A stretch of DNA of 64,000 nucleotides, taken from the NCBI GenBank assembly GCA_949383255.1, contig CASJPF010000002.1, forward strand, positions 62,001-126,000. The letters are read 5' to 3'. The position numbers and the translations under genes are program-made. The first letter of the stretch is position 1, and every line of letters begins with the position of its first letter. This document shows, in pieces, positions 27,424 to 57,041 of the stretch. The DNA comes from Lachnospiraceae bacterium (GTDB lineage Bacteria > Bacillota > Clostridia > Lachnospirales > Lachnospiraceae). The notes below the pieces were generated by a model, which did no database searches, was not told where the DNA came from, and saw nothing but the letters and a program-made list of their open reading frames with translations.

Positions 27424-27555
27424 AACAGCTCAGGCAAGACTTTGCACTGCCCTGCAAAGTCCGTGGGAAAGAATAGTGGTTGAGATGCATCAAGCCACAG
27501 TCCGTGGTTTTGCATGGTTTGATGCTTGTAACAGGAAGCCAAAGGCTGGACTGTT
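27424..27555 (+). repeat. R2 structured intercistronic element between rpsB and tsf
   Basis: About 130 bases starting seven bases after the rpsB stop. Helices: AACAGCTCAG (27424-27433) with CTGGACTGTT (27546-27555), one mismatch; GACTTTGCA (27438-27446) with TGCAAAGTC (27453-27461); GCATCAAGCCA (27487-27497) with TGGTTTGATGC (27515-27525); and AGCC-AAA-GGCT at 27537-27547, which competes with the end of the outer stem. The copy at 56905-57041 keeps all helices, with G-U exchanges, and keeps the linkers GTCCGT, ATAGTGGTTGAGAT and TTGTAACAGGA. I cannot name it. Confidence 0.75.
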
Positions 27556-27587
27556 ACAAAGATAGAGGAAGCAGGAGGAACGTGAAA

Positions 27588-28526
27588 ATGGCTATTACAG
27601 CAGCAATGGTAAAAGAGTTGAGAGAGATGACAGGTGCCGGTATGATGGATTGCAAGAAGGCACTTAATGAGACAGATGGAAATATGGATGAGGCTGTTGA
27701 GTATTTGAGAAAGAATGGACAGGCTAAGGCGGATAAGAAGGCTGGACGTATTGCAGCAGAGGGTCTTTGTAGAGTCTGTACAGATGGCGATCAGGCAGCA
27801 GCGGTAGTGGAAGTAAATTCAGAGACAGATTTTGTGGCAAAGAATGAGCAATTTCAGAATTATGTCACAGCAGTTGCAAAACAGGCACTTGAGACGAGTA
27901 CTACAGATATTGATGCATTCCTTGCAGAACCGTGGAATGAGGATTCTTCAAAAACAGTGAAGGAAGCATTGGTTGAGAAGATTGCTGTTATTGGAGAGAA
28001 CCTAACTATCAGAAGATTTGAGAAAGTTACAGCGGAGAATGGCTGTGTTGTGACCTATACACATGGCGGCGGAAAGATTGGTGTCATTGTGGATGCTGAG
28101 ACCGCAGTAGTAAATGATGCAGTGAAGGAAGCGCTTCTAAATCTGGCGATGCAAGTTGCGGCACTTTATCCAAAGTATGTATCTTCTGAGGAAGTTTCTG
28201 AAGAGTACAAGGAGCATGAGAGAGAGATTATCACAGAACAGATTAAGAATGATCCGAAGATGGCTGGAAAGCCAGAGAAGGTAATCGAGGGTGCTGTTGT
28301 TGGTCGTCTTAACAAAGAGCTTAAAGAAATCTGCTTGTTAGAGCAGGTTTATGTGAAGGCTGAAGACGGAAAACAGACAGTGAAGCAGTATCTTGCTGAA
28401 GTTTCCGCAGATAATGACACAGAGATTAAGATTAAGAAATTTGTTCGTTTTGAGACCGGAGAAGGCATCGAGAAGAAAGTGGATGATTTTGCGGCTGAGG
28501 TTGCGGCACAAGCTGGAACTTTATAA
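27588..28526 (+). CDS. tsf: Translation elongation factor Ts
   Basis: EF-Ts exchanges GDP for GTP on EF-Tu. The 312-residue protein has the N-terminal UBA-like region M-V-K-E-L-R-E-M-T-G-A-G-M-M-D-C-K-K-A-L, the core D-F-V-A-K-N-E-Q-F, and a later T-H-G-G-G-K-I-G-V. The ATG at 27588 follows GCAGGAGGAAC. An open frame continues upstream to 27480, but those 36 codons are the R2 repeat and should not be annotated as protein. A terminator follows at 28589. Confidence 0.97.
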   Translation: MAITAAMVKELREMTGAGMMDCKKALNETDGNMDEAVEYLRKNGQAKADKKAGRIAAEGLCRVCTDGDQAAAVVEVNSETDFVAKNEQFQNYVTAVAKQALETSTTDIDAFLAEPWNEDSSKTVKEALVEKIAVIGENLTIRRFEKVTAENGCVVTYTHGGGKIGVIVDAETAVVNDAVKEALLNLAMQVAALYPKYVSSEEVSEEYKEHEREIITEQIKNDPKMAGKPEKVIEGAVVGRLNKELKEICLLEQVYVKAEDGKQTVKQYLAEVSADNDTEIKIKKFVRFETGEGIEKKVDDFAAEVAAQAGTL

Positions 28527-28588
28527 GGATTCCATAAATTGATCTGTCGCTATGAAAATTGATTCATGTTTATTATGAGTTGAGCAGC

Positions 28589-28624
28589 GAGTAGGGAAGA
28601 GAGACTTCCCTACTCTATTTTTTA
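28589..28624 (+). terminator. Rho-independent terminator after tsf
   Basis: GAGTAGGGAAG (28589-28599) pairs perfectly with CTTCCCTACTC (28605-28615), followed by TATTTTTTAT. The stem is nearly the same sequence as the C module of R1 elements, which suggests that R1 modules and terminators are related here. Confidence 0.8.
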
Positions 28625-28797
28625 TGCACAGACCTGTGTAGAGGAAATATGCCACTAACGTGGCGCACAGGTCGCGCAGCAAGTAGAGGAAAAATTTTTC
28701 TGCTACTCAATTGCGCACAAGCATCCAGATGAAATATGCCAGCAAGCTGATGGAGGTCCAACGCATAAGTAGGGAAGCCTTTCTTCCTTACTCAATT
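28622..28797 (+). repeat. R1 composite intergenic element downstream of tsf
   Basis: Begins directly after the tsf terminator tail with ATGCACA. Module A: GACCTGTGT (28631-28639), bulge AGAGGAAATAT, GCCAC-TAAC-GTGGC, GCACAGGTC (28665-28673). Module C: AGTAG...CTACT around GAAAAATTTTTC (28682-28707). Module B: CATC, GAAATATGC, CAGC-AA-GCTG, ATG (28722-28752). A second C-like hairpin, AGTAGGGAAG with CTTCCTTACT, ends at about 28792. The order A-C-B-C differs from the B-A-C order at 11096. Confidence 0.72.
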
Positions 28798-28809
28798 TGT
28801 GATGTAGCA

Positions 28810-29667
28810 TTACAAAAGTTTAGGCATAATTGCTTCGGCAGCTGCCGAGCGTGCCTTGGCATAAACTTCAGGGTTGCGTTTGCAAAAGACATAATATAGG
28901 CATTCTATAATAAAAAGTTGTCCCAACTTTGCTGCCACAGAGCCAGATTGCAACGGGCTTTCATTGTAGCCGCACAGTAATACAACATCTGCATATTTTG
29001 TGGCGCGTGAATTGGGAAAGTGTGTGATTAATATTACAGATACTTGGCGTTCTTTTGCAATGCGCATAATATCCTCCATATCTTTTGTGGAACCAGAATA
29101 GGAGAAAAACAGAATGACATCTTTGTGGGTGGCTAGCGAAATATTCATGACTTGCATATGCGAGTCCTCAATATGGACAAAACGGGAAGTTGCAGTGGAG
29201 AAACGTGCCCATGCCTCCATTGCCATAACCATACTGCCACCCTGTCCAAAACAAAAGACTCTATCAGCAGCAGAGATAAAATCTACAGCCCTGGAAATCT
29301 CAGTTTCGTCCAATAAATCCATAGTTTCATTTAATGAAAGAACACTGGAAGCATAAAGTTTATGAAAAATACTTCCAAGAGTGTCCTCCGAAGTGATTGT
29401 GTCAGGGGTGTCTGATGGGTCGCCAATATCTGTTACATAGGCAGCCTTGGCAAGTGCTAGTTTCAGGTTATTGTAGCCTGACAGTCCAAGGCTCCGGCAG
29501 AAGCGTGTGATGGAAGCTTCTGACACGCCGCTGCTTTCCGCAAGGGTTGAAATAGACATATATTGGGAATCGTGAGTATTGGCAAGAATGTAGTCAGCCA
29601 GTTTCCGGCTAGAACGTGTAAGTGAATGATATTGCTCCGTGATTAGTTCCAGAATGTTTCCTGCCAA
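28810..29667 (-). CDS. MurR/RpiR family transcriptional regulator
   Basis: A 285-residue repressor type with an N-terminal helix-turn-helix (about 20-60, M-S-I-S-T-L-A-E-S-S-G-V-S-E-A-S-I-T-R-F-C-R) and a SIS sugar-phosphate binding domain (about 125-260, G-Q-G-G-S-M-V-M and F-F-S-Y-S-G-S-T-K-D). Regulators of this family sense amino-sugar phosphates such as ManNAc-6-P or GlcNAc-6-P. The start is a TTG eight bases after AAAGGAG. It ends the nagB-nagA-ROK-rpiR operon and likely controls both divergent operons; a candidate operator is at 32740. Confidence 0.88.
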   Translation of the reverse strand: MAGNILELITEQYHSLTRSSRKLADYILANTHDSQYMSISTLAESSGVSEASITRFCRSLGLSGYNNLKLALAKAAYVTDIGDPSDTPDTITSEDTLGSIFHKLYASSVLSLNETMDLLDETEISRAVDFISAADRVFCFGQGGSMVMAMEAWARFSTATSRFVHIEDSHMQVMNISLATHKDVILFFSYSGSTKDMEDIMRIAKERQVSVILITHFPNSRATKYADVVLLCGYNESPLQSGSVAAKLGQLFIIECLYYVFCKRNPEVYAKARSAAAEAIMPKLL

Positions 29668-29682
29668 ACGATCATCTCCTTT

Positions 29683-30561
29683 CTAAAGTCCAAGTACAGC
29701 GGCGCCCAGCATTCCAGCGCAGTTGCCCAGCGCTGCTTTTTCCAGTTTCACCTGTCGAAAACTCGACATGATATTGGGATACAACAGTTTGCGAAGTTGT
29801 TCTATAACATAAGGCTGCTCCATAATACCGCCGCCAAGAATCACGCCTTCGGGATTTAACATATGGATAATCGTAGTCAGTCCATATATAATCTCCAAAA
29901 TCCAGCGGTCAACAAGTTCTTTGATGCCAGGTTCCTCTAAGCGTTCAAAGATTTTGCGTCCGTTTATTAGAGTAGCGTCAAACTGTTGTGCGTTTTTAAC
30001 CAGTGCTGTGGTAGAAGCGTATTTCTCGTAACAGCCAGAAAACATATCTTCTTCAATCTTGCGCGCTTCAGGGTGTGTGACAATCGCTCCAAATTCCCCG
30101 GCTGAATAACTACTGCCAGAGTATAGTTTTCCACCAGAAAAGATTGCGCCACCTACCCCTGTGCCATAAGTTAAACAGACAAAATTGCTGTAATTTTGCC
30201 CAGCTCCAAAAATAGACTCCCCAATTGCAGCTGCATTCACATCATTTTCTACTGCGACAGGGACACAAAACTCCCGTTCCATTATTTCTTTTAATTTTGT
30301 GCCTGTGTAGTCTGGAATATTCTCGTTTGCATAGATAATTTGTCCGCGTATAGGATCTACTTGTCCAGCGGTGCTGATTCCAATACGCTCAAACGAAGTG
30401 CACTGTCGGTATGCGGCAATAATTTCCTTTGCGCGGGCTGTCACATGAGCACCTCCAAGACTGGCTTCTGTCGGAGTTTCTTTGATGTCTGTTAATACTC
30501 CATCAAGATATAGACCTGATTTGATTGCGGTGCCACCAATATCAAGAACCATAGTAGTCAT
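29683..30561 (-). CDS. ROK family sugar kinase, probable N-acetylmannosamine kinase
   Basis: A 292-residue ROK kinase: ATP-binding D-I-G-G-T-A-I-K-S-G (about 7-16), catalytic E-N-D-V-N-A-A-A-I-G-E and phosphate loop Y-G-T-G-V-G-G-A-I-F. The usual ROK zinc motif C-x-C-G-x-x-G-C is absent; the equivalent region reads F-S-G-C-Y-E-K-Y-A-S. The pathway in this locus needs a ManNAc kinase to connect NanA and NanE, and this is the only candidate, so that activity is inferred from context. Glucokinase or GlcNAc kinase activity is also possible. Confidence 0.82.
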   Translation of the reverse strand: MTTMVLDIGGTAIKSGLYLDGVLTDIKETPTEASLGGAHVTARAKEIIAAYRQCTSFERIGISTAGQVDPIRGQIIYANENIPDYTGTKLKEIMEREFCVPVAVENDVNAAAIGESIFGAGQNYSNFVCLTYGTGVGGAIFSGGKLYSGSSYSAGEFGAIVTHPEARKIEEDMFSGCYEKYASTTALVKNAQQFDATLINGRKIFERLEEPGIKELVDRWILEIIYGLTTIIHMLNPEGVILGGGIMEQPYVIEQLRKLLYPNIMSSFRQVKLEKAALGNCAGMLGAAVLGL

Positions 30562-30653
30562 AGCACGTTTCCTCCTTGTTGTTCAACATAGACTTTCGGA
30601 GTCTCTTTCTGGGCGATTTAATTTAGGAACTGTAAAAATATTCTTAGGCAGTA

Positions 30654-31802
30654 CTATATGAGCGAAGCACGGTGAAATACCATTTTTAATGCGAGGTTGT
30701 CATCTAAAATCACAATGTTTGCGTATTTGCCCGGAGTCAAACTTCCATAATGTTCATAGATTCCAACTGCCTTTGCTGGATTGATAGCAGCACATTTGAC
30801 TGCGCTTGTAATGGGGATACCCATATCATGAACAGCAGTGCGCACACAATCCATAAGATTTGTGACAGAGCCAGCGATAGTGCCGTCCTCAAGAACAGCT
30901 AGATTTCCTTTAACAGTGACATTTTGCCCTCCTAGATCATACTGTCCGTCGGCAAGACCTGCCGCACGCATACTGTCGCTAATAAGAATGATTCTATCAT
31001 CACCAAAAATTTTAAAGGTGGTTCGCACCACGGCAGGATGAATGTGGATTCCATCGCAGATTAGTTCTGCCATGCAATGATTGTCATCGGCGGCTGCGCC
31101 AATTGGACCCGGAGCACGGTGACTGAAAGGCGGCATGGCATTGTATGTGTGGGTCAATTGTGATGCTCCGCACAAAATTGCTTCTTTTGTGGTGTCGTAA
31201 TCGGCAGTTGTGTGTGCGATAGAAATATTAACGCGATTACTATTTTCCCGAATAAAATTCATGGCGCCTTCCGTTTCTGGCGCGATTGCTACAGTGCGAA
31301 ATATATTGTCAGAGATTTCTTGTAAGTGATTGAACATGACAGTGTCAGCCACCGCAATATATTTTCCGTTTTGTGCACCTTTTTTGGCAGCGTTGATAAA
31401 AGGACCTTCCATGTAAAGACCACAGAAATCGGCTGCATCTTTGTCTTCCATGTCACGAAAGTCTTTTGCAGCACGGCAAATCTGTGTCAATATGTCCTCG
31501 GGCATCGTCATGGTGGCGGGTGTGATGGAAGTCACACCTTGGCTTAATTCATAGCGCGCAATTGTGCGTAGAGCTTCTACTGTACCATCACAACAGTCAC
31601 TTCCCATGCATCCATGAAAGTGGATATCAGTCAGACCGGGAATAACATAGTTTCCAGCGGCATCAATTACAGTTTCTTCGCCGGATACATTGCGATAGTC
31701 CTCTTCCGATACAATTTTTTCACCGCATATATATACGGTTTCGGGAGTAAAAAAGCCGTCTTCATGAAAGACAAGGCCGTTGATGATTTTTTTGAGTGCC
31801 AT
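30654..31802 (-). CDS. nagA: N-acetylglucosamine-6-phosphate deacetylase
   Basis: NagA converts GlcNAc-6-P to GlcN-6-P and acetate. The 382-residue amidohydrolase has metal/active-site residues in H-F-H-G-C-M-G, M-E-G-P-F-I, S-I-A-H-T-T-A-D-Y, T-H-T-Y-N-A-M-P-P and the catalytic Asp in L-I-S-D-S-M. Length is standard. It lies between nagB and the ROK kinase on the minus strand, about 70 bases after nagB, and supplies the substrate of NagB. Confidence 0.95.
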   Translation of the reverse strand: MALKKIINGLVFHEDGFFTPETVYICGEKIVSEEDYRNVSGEETVIDAAGNYVIPGLTDIHFHGCMGSDCCDGTVEALRTIARYELSQGVTSITPATMTMPEDILTQICRAAKDFRDMEDKDAADFCGLYMEGPFINAAKKGAQNGKYIAVADTVMFNHLQEISDNIFRTVAIAPETEGAMNFIRENSNRVNISIAHTTADYDTTKEAILCGASQLTHTYNAMPPFSHRAPGPIGAAADDNHCMAELICDGIHIHPAVVRTTFKIFGDDRIILISDSMRAAGLADGQYDLGGQNVTVKGNLAVLEDGTIAGSVTNLMDCVRTAVHDMGIPITSAVKCAAINPAKAVGIYEHYGSLTPGKYANIVILDDNLALKMVFHRASLI

Positions 31803-31872
31803 TATTGTCCGCCTTTCTTAGAAATTGTTCATCAATAACTTATGAACAGTTTTTTCCCTAAATTTTAGTGTG

Positions 31873-32598
31873 TTAGCATTTTGAAAGTGCAGCTTCGTCC
31901 GCCACTAGTGTTACATTGCGGTGTAACTGTAAGATAGAGGCTGGAACCTGTGGTGTAATGGGACCAAAGAATGCAGTTTTTACAATGTCTGCCTTGTCTT
32001 CACCAGATACGATAATAAGAATCCTGTGCGCGGACATAATTGTCTTGATACCCATCGTGTATGCCTGACGCGGAACTTCTGCTTCTGTCTCAAAAAAGCG
32101 CGCGTTCGCTTTAATTGTCTGTTCTGACAAGTCGATGCAGTGCGTCTCTGTGGAGAAAACGTTTCCTGGTTCATTAAAGCCAATATGCCCGTTGTGTCCT
32201 AAACCTAAAAGTTGGAGATCTGGCTCTCCTACAGCGCGTAGGATTTCATTGTAATTGTGGCATGCAACAGCGCTGTCTGGTTCTGTTCCGTCGGGAAGAA
32301 AAGTTCTGCTTTTGTCAATGTTTACTTTACTAAAAAGGTGCTCGTTCATAAAATAATAATAGCTTTGCGAATTGTCGCGGGTCAATCCTTTGTACTCGTC
32401 AAGATTGACCGTCATAACTTCTGAGAAGTCGAGATCTCCTTTTTCATACCAATCCACAAGCTGACGGTAAGTGCCTAATGGGGTTGAGCCAGTAGCGAGA
32501 CCAAGTACGCAGTTCGGCTTCATAATAATCTGGGCCGAAATAAGGTTCGCAGCCTTGCGGCTCATATCGTTGTAATCTTTTGCTCTGCAGATTTTCAT
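31873..32598 (-). CDS. nagB: Glucosamine-6-phosphate deaminase
   Basis: NagB isomerises and deaminates GlcN-6-P to fructose-6-P and ammonia. The 241-residue protein has L-G-L-A-T-G-S-T-P, N-L-D-E-Y-K-G-L (base Asp), and the ring-opening His in G-L-G-H-N-G-H-I-G-F-N-E-P. It is the short form, lacking the C-terminal extension of enteric NagB. First gene of the minus-strand operon; a well-spaced promoter lies at 32665-32693. Confidence 0.95.
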   Translation of the reverse strand: MKICRAKDYNDMSRKAANLISAQIIMKPNCVLGLATGSTPLGTYRQLVDWYEKGDLDFSEVMTVNLDEYKGLTRDNSQSYYYFMNEHLFSKVNIDKSRTFLPDGTEPDSAVACHNYNEILRAVGEPDLQLLGLGHNGHIGFNEPGNVFSTETHCIDLSEQTIKANARFFETEAEVPRQAYTMGIKTIMSAHRILIIVSGEDKADIVKTAFFGPITPQVPASILQLHRNVTLVADEAALSKC

Positions 32599-32664
32599 AG
32601 TGTACCTCCTAAACGAAATCTTTTAATATTTTACTAGAAATGGGGAAATTCCCTTTATAATTTT

Positions 32665-32693
32665 ACTATAACATATTATTTGTATTGTGGCAA
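32665..32693 (-). promoter_or_regulatory. Sigma-A promoter for the nagB operon
   Basis: On the minus strand, TTGCCA (32688-32693) and TATAGT (32665-32670) are separated by exactly 17 bases, about 65 bases before the nagB start. Confidence 0.6.
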
Positions 32694-32739
32694 TTGATAG
32701 AAGAGAAAAATGTTATAAATTTTCCATAGAAATTATTAA

Positions 32740-32754
32740 TGAAAATAATTTTCA
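32740..32754. promoter_or_regulatory. Candidate RpiR-family operator
   Basis: TGAAAAT-A-ATTTTCA is a perfect 15-base palindrome; its flanks (TTATTAA and AATAATA) extend the symmetry imperfectly. TGAAA...TTTCA-type sites are reported for amino-sugar RpiR regulators. It lies between the divergent nag and nan promoters, nearer the nag side. The rest of 32599-33045 is very A/T-rich, with further TTTTCA half-sites near 32901 and 32929. Confidence 0.45.
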
Positions 32755-32941
32755 ATAATATATTAAACGGAAACGCGCAGTTTATATGCATTTTTGTTTT
32801 ATGAATCGTAATTAGTTTTCAATGTTTAATGTACCAAATAGAGTGAGAAATTTGAATTAAAAAGTTTTGAGAATAAAAAAGATACAAAAGTGGTATAAAT
32901 TTTCAAAATTTTAAAAAATTAAAAATATTTTCAAAAATGTA

Positions 32942-32970
32942 TTGACAAAAATACAAGACAAAAGTACAAT
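32942..32970 (+). promoter_or_regulatory. Sigma-A promoter for the nan/ABC transporter operon
   Basis: A consensus TTGACA (32942-32947) is followed 17 bases later by TACAAT (32965-32970), leaving a leader of about 70 bases before the lipoprotein gene. Confidence 0.75.
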
Positions 32971-33045
32971 AAAGTCATAATTAACAAAAACCTAATTCAA
33001 GGTTGTATTTTTTTAAACATTTTTTCCAAAAAAGGAGGGCTTATT

Positions 33046-34431
33046 ATGAAGAAGCGTAAACTTATGGCACTGGCATTGAGCTGCGTTATGGTATGTTCTA
33101 TGACTGCATGTGGCGGTAAAGACACAGGATCAGATCAATCTGCATCTACTTCGACACCTGCACCCGCGCCTGCTGAGAAGGAGGAAGCACCTGCTGAAAA
33201 AGCGAGTACCACTGAAAACACAGACAGCCAGACCCCAACAGGGAGTACGCAGGCAGCGGACATTACTCTGTGGACCTATCCAATTGGAAGCTGGGGAGAT
33301 TCCGCTACTGTTGATGGTTTGATTGCAAACTTTAATGCGGTATATCCCGATATTAAAGTCACAGTAGAATATCTGGATTACACAAATGGTGATGATCAGA
33401 TCAATACAGCAATTGAAGGAAAACAGGCGCCAGACCTTGTAATGGAAGGACCAGAGCGTCTGGTGGCAAACTGGGGAGCAAAAGGTCTGATGGTTGATCT
33501 TGGAGACCTTTGGACAGATGATGCGAAATCTTTGATTTATGATTCTGTGCAGAATGCTTGTAAGAGCAATGATGGCGTATTTTATGAGTATCCGCTGTGT
33601 ATGACTGCACATACTATGGCAATCAACAGAGATATTTTTGAGGCAGCAGATGCACTTCAGTATCTTGATGAAGAGACTGGCACATGGACAACAGAAAATT
33701 TCCAGAAGGCAGTTCAGGCGGTATATGACTATGGTCAGACCAATGTAGGTGCAGTGTACTGTAGCGGACAGGGCGGTGATCAAGGAACACGTGCCTTGAT
33801 AAATAATTTATATGGTGGAACCTTTACCAATCCAGAACATACAGAGTACACAGCAAACAGTGCTGAGAATATTAAGGCGCTTGAGTTGTTAAAGAGCATG
33901 GACGGCATTAATTTTGATGCATCAATAGCAGGTGGTGACGAAATTAACATGTTCTGTAATGGTACTTTTGCAATGGCATTCTGCTGGAATGTATCACAGG
34001 AGAAGAACAATCTTGAAAACATTAGTTTTGATGCCTTACCTATGGCTTTCCCTTCAGAAGATGGTATCCCACAACTTTGCGGTGGTATTTGGGGCTTTGG
34101 TATTTTTGACAACGGCGATCCTGCTAAAATCGAGGCAGCAAAAACATTTATTGATTTTATGGCAAATGATGAGAAACAGGTTGTTGAGAGCGTGAAGGCT
34201 TCCAACTATTGGCCAGTAAAAGACCTTGGAAATATCTATGATGGCGATGCACTTATGACAGAGTACTCAAAATTTGTTGAGTATATGGGTGACTATTATC
34301 AGGTAGTAGGTGGATGGGCAGAAGCCCGCACAGCATGGTGGAATATGCTGCAGCAGGTTGGCTCAGGAACAGATGTAGCAACAGCAGTTGAGGAGTTTGT
34401 GACAACAGCAAATACAGCAGCGGCACAATAA
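33046..34431 (+). CDS. Sugar ABC transporter substrate-binding lipoprotein (probable sialic acid or amino-sugar binder)
   Basis: A 461-residue secreted lipoprotein. The signal peptide (M-K-K-R-K-L-M-A-L-A-L-S) ends at a lipobox with Cys22 (S-M-T-A-C-G-G-K), followed by a Ser/Thr/Pro/Glu-rich linker to about residue 73 and a family 1 extracellular solute-binding fold (D-I-T-L-W-T-Y-P-I-G; later G-G-I-W-G-F-G-I). The substrate is inferred from nanA, nanE and nag genes around it. AAAAGGAGGG precedes the ATG. A strong hairpin separates it from the permease genes, a common way to give the binding protein a higher level. Confidence 0.85.
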   Translation: MKKRKLMALALSCVMVCSMTACGGKDTGSDQSASTSTPAPAPAEKEEAPAEKASTTENTDSQTPTGSTQAADITLWTYPIGSWGDSATVDGLIANFNAVYPDIKVTVEYLDYTNGDDQINTAIEGKQAPDLVMEGPERLVANWGAKGLMVDLGDLWTDDAKSLIYDSVQNACKSNDGVFYEYPLCMTAHTMAINRDIFEAADALQYLDEETGTWTTENFQKAVQAVYDYGQTNVGAVYCSGQGGDQGTRALINNLYGGTFTNPEHTEYTANSAENIKALELLKSMDGINFDASIAGGDEINMFCNGTFAMAFCWNVSQEKNNLENISFDALPMAFPSEDGIPQLCGGIWGFGIFDNGDPAKIEAAKTFIDFMANDEKQVVESVKASNYWPVKDLGNIYDGDALMTEYSKFVEYMGDYYQVVGGWAEARTAWWNMLQQVGSGTDVATAVEEFVTTANTAAAQ

Positions 34432-34452
34432 ATAAATGATGCAGTCAGTGTT

Positions 34453-34485
34453 GCGCCCCTTCCCAGAGAGATGTGGGAGGGGCGC
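34453..34485 (+). promoter_or_regulatory. Intercistronic hairpin between binding protein and permease genes
   Basis: GCGCCCCTTCCCA (34453-34465) pairs with TGGGAGGGGCGC (34474-34485), leaving one bulged T. No U-run follows, so it probably stabilises the upstream mRNA or attenuates rather than terminates fully. Confidence 0.6.
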
Positions 34486-34511
34486 TTCCTAATAAGAAAG
34501 GAGGAATCCTT

Positions 34512-35408: not shown

Positions 35409-35425
35409 GAAAGGGGGAAATAAAT

Positions 35426-36331: not shown

Positions 36332-36345
36332 TGAGGAGGTCCAAT

Positions 36346-36798: not shown

Positions 36799-36837
36799 AA
36801 ATAAGGAGTGCGCCAAAGCGCACAGAAAGGGGCAGAT

Positions 36838-47368: not shown

Positions 47369-47459
47369 AAATGAGGGAAACTAGACATAAAAATAGCCTT
47401 TCGGGAATCGTTTTGTATTGAGAGAGCGAGAGGATTTAAAACAATTCGGAGGAAAAAGT

Positions 47460-47912: not shown

Positions 47913-47942
47913 ATATGCACGAAAACGAGGCAGCAAGAAATA

Positions 47943-49697: not shown

Positions 49698-49765
49698 GCG
49701 AAAACGTCCAAGGTTTCTTTAAGCACATTGTATACAATAAAAAACAAGATATTTTTTAAAACAAC

Positions 49766-49794
49766 TTGCATTTTTAGAAATATTTTTATAAAAT
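49766..49794 (+). promoter_or_regulatory. Candidate sigma-A promoter for the dpp operon
   Basis: TTGCAT (49766-49771) and TAAAAT (49789-49794) at 17 bases. The leader that follows holds a small CACGCA/TGCGTG hairpin (around 49817-49830). Nothing else was recognised in 49698-49953. Confidence 0.5.
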
Positions 49795-49953
49795 TTAACC
49801 GAACACAGAAGATGGTACACGCAAATGCGTGACTGTACATTGTGTGATGGTATGATATTATGCGGATTGCTGATGCAGAAAGCTTTGCATAGCTTCTCAT
49901 AATATTTGTACATAATGAAAAACTAAATAAAGCATAAAAAAGGAGTAAAAGAC

Positions 49954-51612
49954 ATGACAAAGAGAGGACAGAAATTTGGTAAAGTTCTTTTTGCGAGTAT
50001 GTTGCTTACACTGACTGTTGCACTGAGCGGATGCGCAGGTGACAAGGCGGCTGGAGACTCTAAACAGATTGCAGATACGTCTGCCGCAAACAGCAGTGAG
50101 GTAAATACCGCGATCAATGCTGAAACAAGCGTTTCGTCAGAGGAAATGAGCGAGACAAGTGAGGCGAATGAGACAACGGATGATGCATCACATATTACCA
50201 TAGGTATTCCACAGGATTTAGATAGTCTGGTGCCAAGTTTATCACAGGGCGCTGGCACGCAAGAAATTCTCTACAATATCTATGAGGGCTTATATAAGCC
50301 GGACAGCGAGGGCAATCTGGTTCCCGCAGTAGCGAGTGATTATACAATGTCCGAAGATGGGCTTGTGTACACATTTACTTTGAGAGATGGGATTCAATTT
50401 CACAATGGAAATCCTGTTACTGTGGCGGACGTGAAATATTCGATTGAAACCTGCGCCGGTCTTAATGGGGGAGAGCCTGTTATATCGGCGTTTTCTAATA
50501 TTGAAAGTGTCGAGACCCCCGATGAAAGCACCATTGTTATTACATTAAAGGAATCAAGCAGTCCTTTTATGGCAATTTTGTCAACTGTTGAGGCGGCGAT
50601 TGTACCAGCAGATGTGGCTGATTTACAGACAAATCCAGTTGGAACTGGTCCATATAAATTTGTGTCGCGTTCCCTTCAGGAGAATGTGGTGCTTGAGCGG
50701 TTTGACCAATACTGGGGAGAACCAGCACATATCAAAGATATTACTTTGAAAGTGCTTGCAGATTCCGACTCGATTGTGATGAATCTTAAGGGGGGCGCAG
50801 TTGATCTTGTCGCGCGCGTTTCCACCACACAGGCGGCAGAACTTGGCGATGATTTTGAGGTGTTAGAGGGAACGATGAACTTGGTACAAGCATTGTATCT
50901 CAATAATGCAGCAGCGCCGTTTGACATTGAGAAGGTGCGTCAGGCATTGTGCTATGCAGTCAACAAACAGGAGATTTTGGATTTTGTGTCAGAGGGAAAG
51001 GGAACTCCTGTCGGGAGTAGCATGTTCCCTGCATTCGGAAAATATTATGTCGAGGAGTTAAATAATCTGTATACAACAAATATTGAGAAGGCAAAGGAGT
51101 TATTGACGGAGGCTGGTTATCCAGATGGATTTAGCTTTACAATGAAGGTGCCGTCAAACTATCAGCAACATGTTGATACAGCGCAAGTGGTCGCAGAGCA
51201 ATTAAAGCAAATTAATGTCACCGCAAATATTGAATTAATTGAGTGGGAGACTTGGCTGAGTGATGTCTATCAAGGACGTGATTTTGAGGCGACACTGGTC
51301 GGTGTAGATGCATCGACTTTAACTGCGGGAGCAATGCTTAGCAGATTTCGTTCAGATGCACACAATAATTTTATCAACTATAACAATCAGGAATATGATG
51401 CTGCTTATGCGGAGGCACTTGCTGCTGAGGCAGTGATGGATGATGGCAAGGCGACAGAAGCGTACAAGAAATGTGAGACAATTCTTGCAGAGACTGCTGC
51501 AAATGTCTATATTCAGGATATGTGTGAGTTGGTGGCAGTGAGAAAGGGATATACAGGGTATACATTCTATCCTTTATATATACAAGATTTCTCGAAACTG
51601 GATGTACAATAA
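49954..51612 (+). CDS. Peptide ABC transporter substrate-binding lipoprotein
   Basis: A 552-residue family 5 binding protein (DppA/OppA/NikA type). The signal peptide ends at a lipobox L-S-G-C with Cys near 27; a Ser/Thr/Glu-rich linker runs to about 75. The mature fold starts I-T-I-G-I-P-Q-D-L-D-S-L, with Y-E-G-L-Y-K, Y-T-F-T-L-R-D-G-I-Q-F-H-N-G-N-P-V-T and P-V-G-T-G-P-Y-K. AAAAGGAG precedes the ATG. Substrate could be di- or oligopeptides, or nickel-chelate; peptide is the default for this family. Confidence 0.9.
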   Translation: MTKRGQKFGKVLFASMLLTLTVALSGCAGDKAAGDSKQIADTSAANSSEVNTAINAETSVSSEEMSETSEANETTDDASHITIGIPQDLDSLVPSLSQGAGTQEILYNIYEGLYKPDSEGNLVPAVASDYTMSEDGLVYTFTLRDGIQFHNGNPVTVADVKYSIETCAGLNGGEPVISAFSNIESVETPDESTIVITLKESSSPFMAILSTVEAAIVPADVADLQTNPVGTGPYKFVSRSLQENVVLERFDQYWGEPAHIKDITLKVLADSDSIVMNLKGGAVDLVARVSTTQAAELGDDFEVLEGTMNLVQALYLNNAAAPFDIEKVRQALCYAVNKQEILDFVSEGKGTPVGSSMFPAFGKYYVEELNNLYTTNIEKAKELLTEAGYPDGFSFTMKVPSNYQQHVDTAQVVAEQLKQINVTANIELIEWETWLSDVYQGRDFEATLVGVDASTLTAGAMLSRFRSDAHNNFINYNNQEYDAAYAEALAAEAVMDDGKATEAYKKCETILAETAANVYIQDMCELVAVRKGYTGYTFYPLYIQDFSKLDVQ

Positions 51613-51689
51613 GTCTGCATGGTAGGATTAGAATTAGTTTTGGAGCGATAGATTTTATAGAACAATCGCAAATAAAAGGAGACGAGGAT

Positions 51690-52628
51690 ATGACATACAT
51701 TGGTAAAAAGCTGGCGACAATGATTATCACGCTTTTATGTATTTCGTTCCTCGTCTATCTTGCTTTTGACCTAATACCAGGAGATGCAGCGTTAGCGGCA
51801 TTAGGGACAGATGCGACACCAGAAAGTCTTGCGGCGTTGCGGGAGCAATTGGGGTTAAACAGACCGTTTTTGGAACGGTATTTGGAATGGCTGGTTTTTT
51901 TTGTCAATGGTGATTTTGGGACTTCATACAAGTACCATATTCCTGTTGCGGACATGATTGTGTCTAAGTTGCCAATAACAGTTATTATGGCAATGATATC
52001 TTTTTTTATCATGGTAGTAATCTCGCTGCCAATTGGCATTTACACGGCAAAACACAGCGGTAAAAGAATTGATCGCATGATTATAGCGCTCAATCAGATC
52101 GTAATGTCAGTTCCACATTTTTTTATGGGAATTTTAATTACATATTTTTTCGGATTGATATTAAGATTATTCACTCCGGGGGGATTTGTGTCTTACGAGA
52201 CAGATTTTTTGGGATTTCTCGCCTATATTATTTTCCCCTGTTTTGCTATAGCGCTTCCAAAGATTGCAATGTCAATTAAATTACTGCGTAGCTCCTGTAT
52301 TGAAGAGGCAAAAAAAGATTATGTGAGAACGGCGTACAGCAAAGGAAATGACACAAACAAGGTTCTATATAGACATGTGCTGCGAAATGCAATGATTCCT
52401 GTAATTACACTATGGGGAATGACACTTGCGGATATGCTTGTGGGCAGTATTGTTATTGAACAAGTGTTTAATATACCGGGGATAGGACGCATTCTTTTGA
52501 CTTCTATATCCTATCGGGATTATCCAGTGGTGGAGGCGATTATTGTACTGATTGCTTTTGTGGTGATTGTGACAAATTTTATTGTTGATGTGGTTTATCA
52601 ACTAGTCGACCCGCGTATCAGCATATAA
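51690..52628 (+). CDS. dppB: Peptide ABC transporter permease (DppB type)
   Basis: A 312-residue permease with six transmembrane helices: N-terminal helix I-I-T-L-L-C-I-S-F-L-V-Y-L-A-F, then D-L-I-P-G-D-A-A and R-E-Q-L-G-L-N-R-P-F, a family mark, and the EAA-like loop R-T-A-Y-S-K-G. The C-terminus ends Q-L-V-D-P-R-I. AAAAGGAGACGAGG precedes the ATG. It follows the binding protein by about 75 bases. Confidence 0.9.
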   Translation: MTYIGKKLATMIITLLCISFLVYLAFDLIPGDAALAALGTDATPESLAALREQLGLNRPFLERYLEWLVFFVNGDFGTSYKYHIPVADMIVSKLPITVIMAMISFFIMVVISLPIGIYTAKHSGKRIDRMIIALNQIVMSVPHFFMGILITYFFGLILRLFTPGGFVSYETDFLGFLAYIIFPCFAIALPKIAMSIKLLRSSCIEEAKKDYVRTAYSKGNDTNKVLYRHVLRNAMIPVITLWGMTLADMLVGSIVIEQVFNIPGIGRILLTSISYRDYPVVEAIIVLIAFVVIVTNFIVDVVYQLVDPRISI

Positions 52629-52706
52629 GGTAAAGGAAATGATGCAGGCAGTGTGAAAAAGAATATTTCACACCTCCTGATTTGAGTGCCCATAAAAAGT
52701 GGGCAG

Positions 52707-53513
52707 ATGGGAGTTCTTGTGAAAAGGAAAAAAAGATATGCGCCGAATTTTATAATAGGTCTTATAATAACAGGTGCAATGTTATTGTTGATTTTGATTG
52801 GTTTTATTCACACGCCGTATGATATTACAAAGATGGACAGCACTGTAAAGCTGGCGGAGCCATCACTAAAACATTTGATGGGTTGTGATAATTTTGGTCG
52901 GGATATCTTTTCTCGGGTGCTGAAAGGTATGGGCAACACCTTTGTGATTGCGACAGCAACGGTTTCCATAGGAACTGTTTGTGGTGTGATTATTGGGGCA
53001 TTTACAGGATACTTTGGCGGTTGGCTGGATGAGGTACTGATGCGGATCAATGATGTGGTGTTTGCGTTTCCAAGTATTTTGCTGGCGCTTGTGTTTGTCA
53101 GTATCTTTGGCACTGGGAAATACAATGTGATTGGCGCGCTTGGCATTGCGTTTATACCAAGTTTTGCTCGCATTGTCAGAGGAGAGTTTATCAAGTATCG
53201 GGAAATGGACTATGTGAAGAGTGCAAGACTTGCCGGAGTGCCAGAGTTTCGCATTATTTTTGTGCATATTCTGCCAAATGCCATGCCGGTGTTGTTGTCT
53301 TCTATTATGATTGGTTTTAACAATGCTGTGCTTGCTGAGGCAGGCATGAGTTATCTGGGCATTGGCGTACAGCCGCCCAGCGCAAGTCTTGGAAGTATGT
53401 TATCGGAGTCACAGACATATCTTTTTTCTGCACCTTGGTATGCGTTGTTTCCCGGATTAATGATTATTTTAATGGTGTTGGGGCTGTCACTTTTAGCGGA
53501 CAAGAAGAGATAA
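52707..53513 (+). CDS. dppC: Peptide ABC transporter permease (DppC type)
   Basis: A 268-residue permease with about six transmembrane helices, the H-x-x-G-C-D-N-F-G-R-D-I-F-S-R motif of DppC near residue 57, and the loop S-A-R-L-A-G-V-P-E-F-R-I. The C-terminus ends in L-L-A-D-K-K-R, slightly shorter than usual. The start is uncertain: ATG 52707 is used, but a GTG at 52719, preceded by GGGAG, and a GTG at 52686 are also in frame. A strong terminator follows, so the ATPases 2.6 kb downstream need another transcript or readthrough. Confidence 0.88.
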   Translation: MGVLVKRKKRYAPNFIIGLIITGAMLLLILIGFIHTPYDITKMDSTVKLAEPSLKHLMGCDNFGRDIFSRVLKGMGNTFVIATATVSIGTVCGVIIGAFTGYFGGWLDEVLMRINDVVFAFPSILLALVFVSIFGTGKYNVIGALGIAFIPSFARIVRGEFIKYREMDYVKSARLAGVPEFRIIFVHILPNAMPVLLSSIMIGFNNAVLAEAGMSYLGIGVQPPSASLGSMLSESQTYLFSAPWYALFPGLMIILMVLGLSLLADKKR

Positions 53514-53547
53514 GAGACAATTGATAATTTCAATTGTTTCTTTTTTT
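53514..53547 (+). terminator. Rho-independent terminator after dppC
   Basis: GAGACAATTGA (53514-53524) pairs with TCAATTGTTTC (53530-53540, one G-U) over TAATT, followed by seven T. Confidence 0.85.
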
Positions 53548-53660
53548 ATGCACAGACCTGCGCAAAGGAAATATGCCACTAACGTGGCGCGCAGGTCGCG
53601 CGGCGAGTAGGGGAAATCTTCCCTACTCGATTGCACATGGGCACCAAAAAATATTGTCAG
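53548..53660 (+). repeat. R1 composite intergenic element downstream of dppC
   Basis: Begins with ATGCACA on the terminator tail. Module A: GACCTGCGC (53555-53563), bulge AAAGGAAATAT, GCCAC-TAAC-GTGGC, GCGCAGGTC (53589-53597). Module C: GAGTAGGG with CCCTACTC (about 53605-53628). A degenerate B module (GCACCAAAAAATATTGTCAG) ends it. Relative to the copies at 11140 and 28631 a T-A pair of the A stem is replaced by C-G, keeping the helix. Confidence 0.75.
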
Positions 53661-53708
53661 TTTATACGTAGATTCGCACAGAACAAAAGAATATTAAAAA
53701 ATATTTCA

Positions 53709-53737
53709 TTGACAGAATAAGGCTCCTGTGTTATTCT
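53709..53737 (+). promoter_or_regulatory. Sigma-A promoter for the padR cassette
   Basis: Consensus TTGACA (53709-53714) and TATTCT (53732-53737) at 17 bases. The predicted start of transcription falls at the left arm of the dyad at 53742. Confidence 0.65.
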
Positions 53738-53741
53738 TATA

Positions 53742-53786
53742 CTACGATAGACATAGCAATGACAGACGTTGCATTGTCTATCGTAG
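53742..53786. promoter_or_regulatory. PadR operator (large inverted repeat)
   Basis: CTACGATAGACA (53742-53753) and TGTCTATCGTAG (53775-53786) are perfect 12-base arms; inside, GCAA (53756-53759) and TTGC (53769-53772) share the same centre. Placed just after the -10 box and about 45 bases before padR, this is a likely autoregulatory site blocking transcription. Confidence 0.7.
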
Positions 53787-53832
53787 ATAATATTAAGGAA
53801 TGATAAATCGTTCTTATGAAGGGAGGTTTTCT

Positions 53833-54177
53833 ATGAGCAGTATCAGCAGCGATATTATACGCGGGTACAATGACACAATGATTTTGTATTTGCTGTGGGA
53901 TGCACCATCTTATGGGTATGAGATTTCAAAGAGAATCAAGAATCTGTCGGAAGAAAAATATGTGATTAAAGAGACGACGCTCTATTCTGCTTTTACAAGG
54001 CTGGAAAAAAATGGATTTGTTGAGTCTTTTTCCGAGAATGTTACAATCAACGGAAAACGCAGAACATACTATAAAATCACAGAACAGGGCAGGCAGTATT
54101 ACCGTGAGAAGTGCGCAGAGTGGACATTGACTAAGGAAGTTGTGGAAAAATTTATTAAGCAGGATGGGGGGATATAA
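53833..54177 (+). CDS. PadR family transcriptional regulator
   Basis: A 114-residue winged-helix repressor: D-T-M-I-L-Y-L-L-W-D-A-P-S-Y-G-Y-E-I-S-K-like start (kept short here), T-L-Y-S-A-F-T-R-L-E-K-N-G recognition helix, and wing R-R-T-Y-Y-K-I-T-E-Q-G. It belongs to the small PadR class with a short C-terminal dimerisation helix. The ATG at 53833 follows GAAGGGAGG. It overlaps nothing but is four bases from the next gene, forming a three-gene cassette with the DUF1700-like and DUF4097 genes, and probably represses itself through the dyad at 53742. Confidence 0.9.
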   Translation: MSSISSDIIRGYNDTMILYLLWDAPSYGYEISKRIKNLSEEKYVIKETTLYSAFTRLEKNGFVESFSENVTINGKRRTYYKITEQGRQYYREKCAEWTLTKEVVEKFIKQDGGI

Positions 54178-54181
54178 GAGT

Positions 54182-55147
54182 ATGGAGACAATTAGAAATT
54201 ATCTGGAAACAATGTTTGCAAGACTTCCTATTACATTAGAAGTGCAAAAGGCAAAGAATGAGTTGTGGCAGATGATGGAGGATAAATATACAGAATTAAT
54301 CAAAGATGGCAAGACAGAGAACGAGGCAGTTGGCATTGTGATTTCTGAGTTTGGAAATCTTGACGAGTTGGCAGAGGAACTTGGCATTAGCAGTTTTGTG
54401 ATTCAGGGGAATCAGAAATCGTCAGAAGGGTTTTGCAATATGAAACTTGCGGAAGTCAAGGATTATTTACATGATAAGACACGTTCTGCATACACAGTTG
54501 CACTTGGCGTATTTTTATGTATTATCAGTTGTTGTGGGTATATGTTGGATATTAGCTGGAATTGGCGTGGCGGAGTCTTTGCCATATGCTTTATGTTTTT
54601 GATGATAGCGGCAGCAGTCAGCTTGTTTCTTTTTTCAAGTTTTGTTATGGGAAAGTGGAAATTCTTGAAGGAAAAAAGATGCAGTGTGGATTTTGCGACA
54701 GCAGAGTATGTACATAATCGCCGCGAGAGTTTTCGCGTCACACATGCCATGATGATTACGATCGGTGTTATTTTGTGCATTTTGAGTGTACTTCCAATTG
54801 TGATTGTAAGCAGTATCTTGTCATGGAGTAGCGGCTTTGGTGTAGTGTTGATGTTTGTGTTTGTTGGAGTTGGAGTTTTTCTGATTGTGGCAGCAGTAAA
54901 TGTAAATTCAGGTATGACAACAATTCTTTCTTTAAATAAAAGTGATACTATGGGAAGTTGTTTTGTGCCATCCCAAAAACAGGTAAGTTATAAAAACGCG
55001 ACAATCTCGCAGATAATGTCTATTTACTGGCCGACAGTAACTTGTATTTATCTTTGCTGGAGTTTTTTGAGTTTTGACTGGCATATCACATGGATTATAT
55101 GGGTGATTGCTGCGCTGGTACAACAACTTATACGTGCTGTTTGGTAG
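54182..55147 (+). CDS. Membrane protein with N-terminal permease-prefix (DUF1700-like) domain
   Basis: A 321-residue protein. The first 75 residues (I-R-N-Y-L-E-T-M-F, then A-V-G-I-V-I-S-E-F-G-N-L-D-E-L-A-E-E-L) form the helical permease-prefix/DUF1700 domain. About five or six transmembrane helices follow (near 105-125, 135-160, 205-235, 235-260 and 285-315). Such proteins accompany PadR regulators in Firmicutes and may pass an envelope signal to PadR; this role is inferred. GGGGGGATATAAGAG precedes the ATG. Confidence 0.8.
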   Translation: METIRNYLETMFARLPITLEVQKAKNELWQMMEDKYTELIKDGKTENEAVGIVISEFGNLDELAEELGISSFVIQGNQKSSEGFCNMKLAEVKDYLHDKTRSAYTVALGVFLCIISCCGYMLDISWNWRGGVFAICFMFLMIAAAVSLFLFSSFVMGKWKFLKEKRCSVDFATAEYVHNRRESFRVTHAMMITIGVILCILSVLPIVIVSSILSWSSGFGVVLMFVFVGVGVFLIVAAVNVNSGMTTILSLNKSDTMGSCFVPSQKQVSYKNATISQIMSIYWPTVTCIYLCWSFLSFDWHITWIIWVIAALVQQLIRAVW

Positions 55148-55180
55148 CGGTAAGCAAAAATGATTTTTAGGAGGGTAATT

Positions 55181-56005
55181 ATGAGTATGAGAAAAAATAT
55201 ATGGATGGCAGTACTTACGATTATTACAATCTGCTGTGTAATTGGCGGCACATTTTATCACACAGGTATCTTTGGACTTAGAGGCGGCTTTCGCTTTGGA
55301 GAGAATAGAGCGACAAGTGCAAGTTCAGATTTGGAAGCGTTTCGCGGTATCAATGTAGATGCAGATATGATGAATTTATCAATTGAATCGGGGAACCGTT
55401 TCTATCTTGATGGTAAGTATACAGATAGACTAAAATTTGAATATGAAGTAAAAGACGAAACGCTTTACGTAAAACAAAGAAGTTCTAGAATGGATTTTTG
55501 GGGAAGAAGTATGAATGAGGACTGCAATGTCACATTAACTGTGCCACAAAATACAACAATAGATTTTATAGAAGCGAAGGTTGCTATGGGCAATATTAAT
55601 ATAGAGAACATTGCATCTTTAGACTGCGAGGCGATGACAAATATGGGAAATTGTACGCTTGAGAAGTGCAGTTTTAGCAAGGCGGATATTGATACCAATA
55701 TGGGGGAAATTACAATAAAAGATACAGCGCTTGGCGAGGCGGAAATTGACAATGATATGGGAACAATTAGAATGGAACATTGTATTTTTCAAAATCTAAA
55801 AGCAGATAATTCTATGGGAGAGATATATATTGATGCAGATCAGAACCTTGACCAATATGAAATTGAATTCAAAGCAGAAATGGGCAATGTGAGAGTAAAT
55901 GGTCAAAGTCAGGGAACAAAATACCGTCAGTCGGGAAATTCAGGAAAACTTGAAGCCAGTACCAGCATGGGAAGTGTGATAGTAGAATATAAAAATGCAG
56001 AATAA
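55181..56005 (+). CDS. DUF4097 family beta-strand repeat protein
   Basis: A 274-residue protein with an N-terminal transmembrane anchor (about 5-27) and an extracytoplasmic right-handed beta-repeat domain. Repeats of about 18-20 residues centre on M-G-N-I-N-I-E-N, M-G-N-C-T-L-E-K, M-G-E-I-T-I-K-D, M-G-T-I-R-M-E and M-G-E-I-Y-I-D, typical of DUF4097 (adhesin-like) proteins. Function is not established; the PadR plus permease-prefix plus DUF4097 trio resembles cell-envelope stress modules. AGGAGGG precedes the ATG at 55181. Confidence 0.85.
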   Translation: MSMRKNIWMAVLTIITICCVIGGTFYHTGIFGLRGGFRFGENRATSASSDLEAFRGINVDADMMNLSIESGNRFYLDGKYTDRLKFEYEVKDETLYVKQRSSRMDFWGRSMNEDCNVTLTVPQNTTIDFIEAKVAMGNINIENIASLDCEAMTNMGNCTLEKCSFSKADIDTNMGEITIKDTALGEAEIDNDMGTIRMEHCIFQNLKADNSMGEIYIDADQNLDQYEIEFKAEMGNVRVNGQSQGTKYRQSGNSGKLEASTSMGSVIVEYKNAE

Positions 56006-56041
56006 AGATAGATTTTTCCTATGTGTTGTGGTAAAATAAAA

Positions 56042-56070
56042 GTTACAGTTCGGCAGAGTTGAACTGTAAC
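56042..56070 (+). other. Hairpin between the DUF4097 gene and dppD
   Basis: GTTACAGTTC (56042-56051) and GAACTGTAAC (56061-56070) are a perfect ten-base inverted repeat with a nine-base loop. No U-run follows. The right arm equals the end of the R3 element at 4112-4176, and R2 at 56905 starts with a near-complement of it, so it may be a repeat remnant rather than a terminator. Confidence 0.55.
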
Positions 56071-56104
56071 AAATAAAGAAGCTGTTAAAGGTCAGAGAAA
56101 ATAG

Positions 56105-56908
56105 ATGGAACAAATATTATTAAAGGTAGAAGATTTAAATATAGAATTTCATGACCATGATGTGCCAGAACGCGTTGTGAATCATTTGGCTATGGATTTG
56201 CGGCAGGGAGAGATTCTTGGAATTGTCGGGGAATCTGGATCGGGAAAGTCGATGACAGCAATGGCAATTGCAGGGCTGTTGCGGCGACATGATATGAAAA
56301 TGGAGGGAAAGATTCTGTTTAAGGGAAAAGAACTTCTCCATGAGAATCGGAAAACGCTTCGGCAAATACAAGGAAATGAAATTGGCATTGTTTTTCAGGA
56401 ACCTATGACCTCTCTAAATCCAGTAAAGCGTATTGGTTGGCAAGTGGAGGAAAGTTTGCGTATTCATAGACCAGAAATGCAAAAAGAGGAACGCTATCGA
56501 CGTGTAGTGAAAGCGCTGGAGAATGTGGAGCTTGAGAATCCGCAGCTTATCTGTAGAAAGTATCCACATGAGCTTTCCGGTGGCATGCGGCAGCGTGTTA
56601 TGATTGCCTCTGCAATGATTTGCGAGCCAAAGCTTTTGATTGCAGATGAGCCGACAACAGCGCTCGATGTGACAATACAGTTACAGATTGTAAAGCTTTT
56701 ACAACGGCTGAACCAAGAAAAGCAGATGGCGGTTTTGTTTATATCTCATGATCTAAGCCTAGTAAAACGTTTGTGCCACAGAATTATTGTAATGCATAAT
56801 GGAAATATGGTGGAGGCGGGAACGACAGAAGAAATATTTTATCACCCAAAAGAAGATTACACAAAGGAATTGATTAACGCAATACCAAAACTTGAAAAAA
56901 TTCGGTAA
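56105..56908 (+). CDS. dppD: Peptide ABC transporter ATP-binding protein (DppD type)
   Basis: A 267-residue ATPase: Walker A G-E-S-G-S-G-K-S-M-T (about 40-49), Q-loop F-Q-E-P-M-T-S-L-N-P, signature L-S-G-G-M-R-Q-R, Walker B L-L-I-A-D-E-P-T-T-A-L-D and H-loop F-I-S-H-D-L. It lacks the C-terminal oligopeptide extension present in many DppD proteins (about 325 residues). The ATG has only a weak AGAGAAAA site. The stop codon lies inside the first bases of an R2 element. Confidence 0.92.
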   Translation: MEQILLKVEDLNIEFHDHDVPERVVNHLAMDLRQGEILGIVGESGSGKSMTAMAIAGLLRRHDMKMEGKILFKGKELLHENRKTLRQIQGNEIGIVFQEPMTSLNPVKRIGWQVEESLRIHRPEMQKEERYRRVVKALENVELENPQLICRKYPHELSGGMRQRVMIASAMICEPKLLIADEPTTALDVTIQLQIVKLLQRLNQEKQMAVLFISHDLSLVKRLCHRIIVMHNGNMVEAGTTEEIFYHPKEDYTKELINAIPKLEKIR

Positions 56909-57041
56909 CAGTTCAGCACAGGATTTTGCATTTACTGCAAAGTCCGTAAGAAAACATAGTGGTTGAGATGCATCAAGCCATCGCGAAGCGATTGTGCATG
57001 GCTTGATGCTTGTAACAGGAAGCCAAAGGCTGAGCTGTCAC
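56905..57041 (+). repeat. R2 structured intercistronic element after dppD
   Basis: Starts at the dppD stop. Helices: ACAGTTCAGC (56908-56917) with GCTGAGCTGT (57029-57038); GGATTTTGCA (56921-56930) with TGCAAAGTCC (56936-56945); GCATCAAGCCA (56970-56980) with TGGCTTGATGC (56999-57009); TCGC-GAA-GCGA inside it (56981-56991). All helices are shared with 27424-27555, with G-U or paired changes between the copies. Confidence 0.75.

Follow-up and report, generated by a model that had tools for sequence, protein, structure and literature searches.

The stretch of DNA analysed here (the window) comprises 64,000 nucleotides from a Lachnospiraceae bacterium (GenBank assembly GCA_949383255.1, contig CASJPF010000002.1, positions 62,001 to 126,000 of the forward strand) and carries two copies of a short structured element, one in the spacer between rpsB and tsf and the other behind an open reading frame (ORF) for an ABC-transporter ATPase (Table 1). 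The rpsB and tsf labels derive from an earlier first-pass annotation of the sequence and from position, with ORFs present at both. The annotation had described the two copies, which it called R2, as a multi-helix element of about 135 nt kept between two unrelated gene pairs; both copies are real, and their limits are refined in Table 1. The ATPase ORF ends at 56908, its TAA stop codon (56906-56908) being supplied by the left end of copy 2. A role as terminator or promoter was rejected after a prediction scan around the copies returned no terminator-like site at either of them and a single promoter-like site, located within tsf.

A miniature transposable element with many copies

Comparison of the copies with their relatives identifies the element as a miniature inverted-repeat transposable element (MITE) of about 130-140 bp, of which R2 is one subfamily. 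We fetched 30 copies from the window's own genome and found that they have a common pair of inverted ends, GTWAC..TTCAG (GTWACAGTTCAG type), with 8-bp direct duplications around most of them. For the R2 set, drawn from the genus, 140 loci yielded 133 distinct elements and, after removal of 4 with a low consensus score, 129 copies. A flanking 8-bp duplication (at least 6/8 identical) is present at 101 of these 129, compared with 2.1% expected when flanks are shuffled among copies, and by the same threshold at 25/39 copies of other subfamilies and 23/31 in a set from other genera that includes the own genome. The element is a transposable one; it is short (below the limit of about 300 bp) and without room for a transposase, has inverted repeats and many copies, and relatives carry empty sites, as is the rule for MITEs. 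The first-pass annotation had missed this nature, and a match to transposon ends, which it had listed among the observations that would speak against its reading, is what the inverted ends and 8-bp duplications amount to.

Copy number is high by several measures. The end sequence GTWACAGTTCAGC (at most one mismatch) occurs at 186 sites in the genome, compared with 13 for a reversed control; a single copy used as a DNA query gives at least 41 genome matches (the best 40 of 114 first-look candidates were scored), and with a broad covariance model (model R2), scoring 150 of 2,451 candidates from the window's genome yields 127 matches. These 127 are mostly about 126-170 nt long, and some are truncated. 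Further subfamilies in the genome share the ends but have different hairpins, and alongside them occur a 187-bp type and solo 29-bp palindromes. The 187-bp type is a second MITE type (L031, L032 and L033, about 187 nt each) with the same ends and a different hairpin-rich interior (CATG...), which looks like another structured cargo. The solo palindromes (L042, L043 and L050) consist of two facing ends only and, by eye, have their own 8-bp duplications matching at 8, 8 and 7 of 8 positions; the one in the window (L050) is a minimal relative of the MITE, and such palindromes are possibly very small independently mobile units. Elsewhere in the genome one element is apparently nested inside another of a related subfamily (L025), and in genome G002 three related elements stand in tandem with the same 8-bp duplication, GAACTTGA, between each (L350, G002:C1:889886-891709), an arrangement that may have arisen by serial insertion or by amplification via the duplications. 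Carriage by phages or plasmids found no support, as neither the 50,697 phage records nor the 72,556 plasmid records searched gave a match; the records closest to the window's genome may be absent from both collections.

The presence of the element at rpsB/tsf and at the second site reflects insertion, without positional conservation. We fetched 30 rpsB/tsf loci of the genus, whose spacer was readable by script in 17 (own included) and not in 13. A whole element is present in 3 of the 17 readable spacers, those of the own genome, G007 (identical) and G006 (another subtype, shifted by 1 bp), and in none of the other 14, of which G004 has what by eye is an apparent, remnant-like 3' part of another subfamily. 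The earlier description of an element kept between two gene pairs thus gives way to one of insertion. Across genomes, a covariance model of the R2 subfamily (model R1) matches 34/38 genomes of the genus, with 42 matches in G002. The broad model matches 59 of 299 Lachnospiraceae genomes (298 genera, own included; 11 candidates scored per genome). A class-wide draw with 8 candidates scored per genome and stricter filters gave matches in 6 of 391 genomes (own included), all from the own family and from 3 of 223 genera, and absence elsewhere holds at that sensitivity.

Table 1. Features of the element and its minimal relative in the window (window coordinates)
Feature	Position	Strand	Remarks
MITE copy 1 (R2 subfamily)	27422..27557 (136 nt)	+	between rpsB and tsf, co-oriented with both
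Copy 1 left target duplication	27414..27421		ATAGATAG; contains rpsB stop codon (27415-27417)
Copy 1 right target duplication	27558..27565		AAAGATAG; 7/8 identical to left one
Copy 1 hairpin 1	27438..27461	+	GACTTTGCA/TGCAAAGTC; RNA folding and covariation
Copy 1 hairpin 2	27487..27525	+	outer and inner stem, 3' bulge; RNA folding and covariation
Copy 1 hairpin 3	27528..27557	+	right end (CTGTTAC) pairing with internal end copy (GTAACAG)
MITE copy 2 (R2 subfamily)	56905..57041 (137 nt)	+	behind ABC-transporter ATPase ORF, whose stop codon lies in the left end
Copy 2 left target duplication	56897..56904		AAAATTCG
Copy 2 right target duplication	57042..57049		AAGATTGG; 6/8 identical to left one
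Copy 2 hairpin 1	56921..56945	+	GGATTTTGCA/TGCAAAGTCC
Copy 2 hairpin 2	56970..57009	+	GCATCAAGCC/GGCTTGATGC, inner ATCGC/GCGAT
Copy 2 hairpin 3	57012..57041	+	right-end palindrome; alternative: right end paired with left end
Solo 29-bp palindrome	56042..56070		ends as in MITE; flanks AAATAAAA (56034-56041) and AAATAAAG (56071-56078), 7/8 identical

A separate family of repeats, each about 75 nt and containing a long hairpin, has three copies in the window, at 11127-11201, 28618-28692 and 53542-53616. Its arms, GACCTGTG...CACAGGTC, enclose a ...GCCACT/GTGGC inner stem, and one copy lies directly 3' of tsf.

One fold across unrelated arm sequences

The same fold is retained across subfamilies of the MITE despite unrelated arm sequences. 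Within R2, we ranked all 9,045 column pairs of an alignment of the 129 copies, made by sequence only, for covariation. Of the top 11 column pairs, 8 are base pairs within hairpins 1 and 2, the remaining three being a loop pair within hairpin 1 and two cross pairs in the inner stem of hairpin 2, and 10 helix pairs are found among the top 50. The hairpins, the near-identical linkers and the inner stem that is swapped yet still paired between the two window copies (CCAC/GTGG against TCGC/GCGA), all noted in the first-pass annotation, are borne out by this analysis and, with at least 41 DNA and 127 model matches, lie far beyond chance. By contrast, what had been termed a closing stem consists of the two transposon ends, whose 13 pairs rank 426-8817 of 9,045 and have no covariation support. 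A small GCC-AAA-GGC hairpin is likewise present, and its four pairs (ranks 3765-7309) lack such support; for hairpin 3, the outer pairs have ranks of 54-4045. In minimum-energy RNA folds the end-to-end closing stem is absent from copy 1 and formed in copy 2. Sense-strand folding gives z-scores of -2.0 for copy 1 and -5.3 for copy 2, and three other copies range from -5.9 to -8.2; the antisense strands of window copies 1 and 2 score -2.3 and -4.8.

Between subfamilies, we assembled a MAFFT alignment (A3) of 36 members whose arms are unrelated in sequence, with a structure derived from two of them. Pairing holds in 94.6% of 1,138 cells, compared with a mean of 75.7% after shuffling and 29.2-42.7% when arms are slid, and 195 cells show changes on both sides of the pair, where shuffling leaves 60 and sliding 35 or fewer. 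Widespread loss of the helices, the other contrary observation that the earlier annotation had foreseen, is therefore not what these 36 diverse copies present. A second alignment (A4), which combines 32 matches at 30 loci in the own genome and 29 others, has 96.0% of cells paired and 164 double-change cells, figures that are biased toward the model that guided it. Hairpin 3 consists of the internal end copy and the right end and occurs in three main versions that track the end sequence. The recurrent unpaired parts are a loop GCA[CT]TT[GA]CTGC, a linker CCGTRNGAAAA and a T-rich 3' bulge, often TTTGCAT within the genus and more variable outside it. Substitution at helix positions is 3-4 times lower than at unpaired ones (0.056 vs 0.200 for C>T, 0.044 vs 0.145 for G>A; the helix figures include the ends). 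The view that this is a strongly supported structured RNA thus stands as far as strongly maintained base pairing is concerned, and falls short in having overlooked transposition.

Identity with a known Rfam family was rejected after scans that left the element free of matches, in agreement with the first-pass annotation, which could assign no family. Rfam 15 gave no match on the window elements at the gathering cut-off, none on the element in L001, L002 and L007 up to E 10, where only weak overlaps with adjacent sequence appeared, and none on the element when 20 loci from other subfamilies were scanned up to E 1. Close to elements, the same scans recorded a 6S RNA (L356:986-1170) and a T-box leader (L002:1206-1418), both above cut-off, and a T-box match below its cut-off (L393:1727-1971).

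IS66-like elements as candidate mover

The MITE is probably mobilised in trans by an IS66-like DDE transposase of a divergent, single-gene type that would act on the same end sequences, an inference that is well supported. IS66 elements are insertion sequences (IS) with ends starting GTAA and 8-bp duplications. A search of the genus uncovered a divergent single-gene IS66-like branch whose elements are about 2.25 kb long and flanked by 8-bp duplications. All four proteins scanned exceed the cut-off for PF03050 (E 3.4e-24 for L091) and all four miss the NCBIfam cut-off for IS66 transposases (180 bits), scoring 130-168 bits; since they fall below it, we regard them as a divergent branch and call them IS66-like. 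Their ends have the general form GTTAC[ACT][AGT]TTCA[CG] and include GTTACTGTTCAC and GTTACTTTTCAC within the genus; GTTACTGTTCAC also terminates some MITE subfamilies of the genus, and it is the end of the IS elements that G004 and G001 carry. Among 48 IS66-like loci from the genome collection, at least five of them already counted and the best end pair picked by script, 15 have an 8/8 target duplication, the rest being cut by a contig end, decayed or without a duplication found. One of these elements (L109) has GTTACAGTTCAG, the 12-nt end of the MITE, at both ends, and another (L142) has ends GTTACTGTTCAG/GTTACAGTTCAG and an 8/8 duplication, AAAATCGG. Within the genus, the end of L091 agrees at 11/12 nt. 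The first search found no IS66 transposase in the own genome, and a more sensitive one found IS66-like fragments only, which belong to an internally deleted element in which the start of the transposase frame is joined to its end, with right end GTTACTTTTCAC (L208, G000:C58:15400-16700).

Several observations weigh against this assignment. The duplication of L109 is unseen because its sequence stops at a contig end. IS66-like matches are present in 15/38 genomes of the genus, several of them merely fragments, and among these genomes we found no intact IS66-like element with the exact R2 end. G002, with 42 matches to model R1, has weak transposase fragments only, and a search of this near-complete genome for a full-length partner failed, as none of its 47 exact ends forms an inward pair 0.8-4 kb apart. 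Classical IS66 elements were rejected as movers, since among ten loci only L059, which belongs to the divergent branch, had GTTA/GTAA-type ends with a duplication. Origin of the core by internal deletion of an IS was likewise rejected: the core was not found inside the 48 IS loci, and their end regions are, by eye, unlike it. These loci contain one separate, adjacent MITE (L128) and one marginal core match (L114, E 0.2). The adjacent MITE (L093:4421-4564, the same as L128:3327-3470) adjoins its IS66-like element and has different ends, GTGACTATTCAC/GTTACTATTCAC, with the same architecture.

Possible action of the folded core and relation to known elements

The pairing and the past mobility of the element are plain from the comparisons above, and we infer with moderate support that its core acts as RNA. 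Using crude ORF calls, and with a few insertions common to close genomes, we counted element orientation between co-directional genes; 27/129 R2 copies, 5/39 copies of other subfamilies and 4 in the other-genera set (29 other genomes) lacked usable gene context. The element is co-oriented with the genes in 62:13 cases in the R2 set (p = 8e-9) and 23:3 in other subfamilies (p = 9e-5), and the pooled count is 97:23 along versus against the genes. Of 111 copies with a sense upstream gene, 34 have the end of that gene between -25 and +3 nt from the element, against 5/37 for the mirrored case. Because GTWAC is present at both ends, the supply of stop codons would not account for this direction, judging from the sequence. 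In hairpins 1 and 2, differences between subfamilies favor G-U over A-C pairs, at 27:6 in A3, whose members came from a structure-aware search that may favor G-U somewhat, and at 9:2 in A4, which is model-aligned; the reference for these counts is the ratio of C>T to G>A rates where bases are unpaired, 1.38.

The way in which A3 and A4 were assembled is one of several points that weigh against action as RNA. Orientation in the other-genera set is 12:7, which is not significant (p = 0.36), and the orientation bias has no age trend (42:12, 32:4 and 23:7 for duplications matching at 8/8, 6-7 and at most 5 positions). Within R2, the G-U to A-C ratio in hairpins 1 and 2 (61:32) equals that of the transposon ends (83:44), and G-U polarity was accordingly set aside there as evidence for RNA; G-U exchanges that preserve pairing, on which the first-pass annotation had leaned, are in this sense not decisive. 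Among orthologous insertions (11 pairs found, 10 pooled), changed sites amount to 3.5% in helices, 6.1% in loops and 8.4% in flanks, with p = 0.06 for helix against loop.

On balance, we consider it probable that the element is a mobile RNA module, a MITE moved in trans by an IS66-like transposase and transcribed with its neighbors. Its copies, lying mostly co-oriented with neighboring genes and often just 3' of a stop codon, would probably be co-transcribed, and the folded transcript may work in cis by messenger 3'-end protection, processing or insulation. Such action would make insertions within operons tolerable, and selection could then maintain the fold in lineages that are still jumping. 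A further proposal, which we regard as rather unlikely, is that the core is an RNA whose recurrent unpaired motifs are bound by a protein (a host factor or the IS66-like transposase itself), such that transposition or messenger fate would be RNA-dependent, and that it has reached dozens of genera in company with differing IS66-like ends. The fold might instead matter as DNA, with hairpins extruded from single-stranded or supercoiled DNA forming part of what the transposase or a host factor acts on in transposition, and any transcript being irrelevant. Retention of pairing in single insertions that are probably expendable fits this explanation, as do the composition of hairpin 3 from the ends themselves, the R2 wobble ratio that points to neither strand and the non-significant constraint on helices relative to loops after insertion. 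A DNA hairpin, however, predicts neither co-orientation with neighboring genes nor a one-strand excess of G-U over A-C between subfamilies, and the solo 29-bp palindromes with 8-bp duplications (L042, L043, L050) suggest that the core is dispensable for movement; we give the DNA explanation a low probability.

Still less probable, in our estimation, is a functionless fold in a purely selfish element, in which template switching during replication, an established mutational route, perfects imperfect palindromes and leaves matched changes in both arms. Joint change of both arms is indeed frequent, and the distant end-to-end pairing, which switching could hardly reach, shows no covariation, but the process does not predict the 3-4 times lower substitution at helix than at unpaired positions, nor the similar loops and linker, fixed stem lengths, orientation bias and G-U excess. 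The remaining candidate, a domesticated cis-regulator or stand-alone structured RNA that is selected site by site and is only transposon-like, would draw on the strong covariation and on the elements at rpsB/tsf in at least two lineages (own/G007 and G006, perhaps with the G004 remnant). It is already weakened by lineage-specific copies with duplications, and the unrelated genes beside the two window copies, the lack of a whole element in most readable rpsB/tsf spacers and the 127 matches in one genome, with fresh duplications and no Rfam match on the element, leave it very improbable. If the mobile RNA module that we favor does act as RNA, it would constitute a movable messenger-processing layer in these bacteria that the present Rfam scans did not recognise, and selection of bacterial MITEs for their RNA would become directly testable. 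The fold spans 59/299 sampled genomes of a major gut family, and copies in the own genome are found even inside the rpsB-tsf spacer.

MITEs are usually regarded as decayed transposon scraps, and the ERIC repeats of enterobacteria have termini other than those of the MITE described here. Searches of open-licence PubMed Central brought up no paper whose title or opening lines of the abstract describe the element. MITEs with folded transcripts are, as a kind, already known, and two reviews, PMC2229807 and PMC10969869, describe bacterial examples, among them ERIC with orientation-dependent effects on messenger stability; neither 'IS66' nor 'Lachnospir' appears in the text of PMC10969869. According to PMC2229807, ERIC/IRU elements share with the present MITE their nature as small MITE-like intergenic repeats with a folded co-transcribed RNA and an orientation-dependent effect; compared by description, they differ in host bacteria, and the MITE here has several hairpins, covarying unrelated arms, IS66-like ends and 8-bp duplications. 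The Correia/NEMIS elements of Neisseria are inverted-end MITEs with hairpins in the transcript that have been proposed as RNase III sites, but in general terms their hairpin is the pairing of the ends (PMC2229807), whereas here the inner hairpins covary and the ends do not. The nearest architecture described in that source is that of CIR from Caulobacter, with two hairpin arms and a linker; by description, CIR has a GANTC motif at a loop (PMC2229807), whereas the MITE here has a transposase link and subfamily-wide arm turnover. The IS66 family shares with the proposed mover the PF03050 transposase, inverted ends and 8-bp duplications, and the IS66-like elements have about 12 bp of ends in common with the MITE, whose core was not found inside the 48 loci examined. 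What sets our element apart from these systems is a single fold that recurs with unrelated arms, with several transposon ends and in many genera, together with a link to IS66-like elements.

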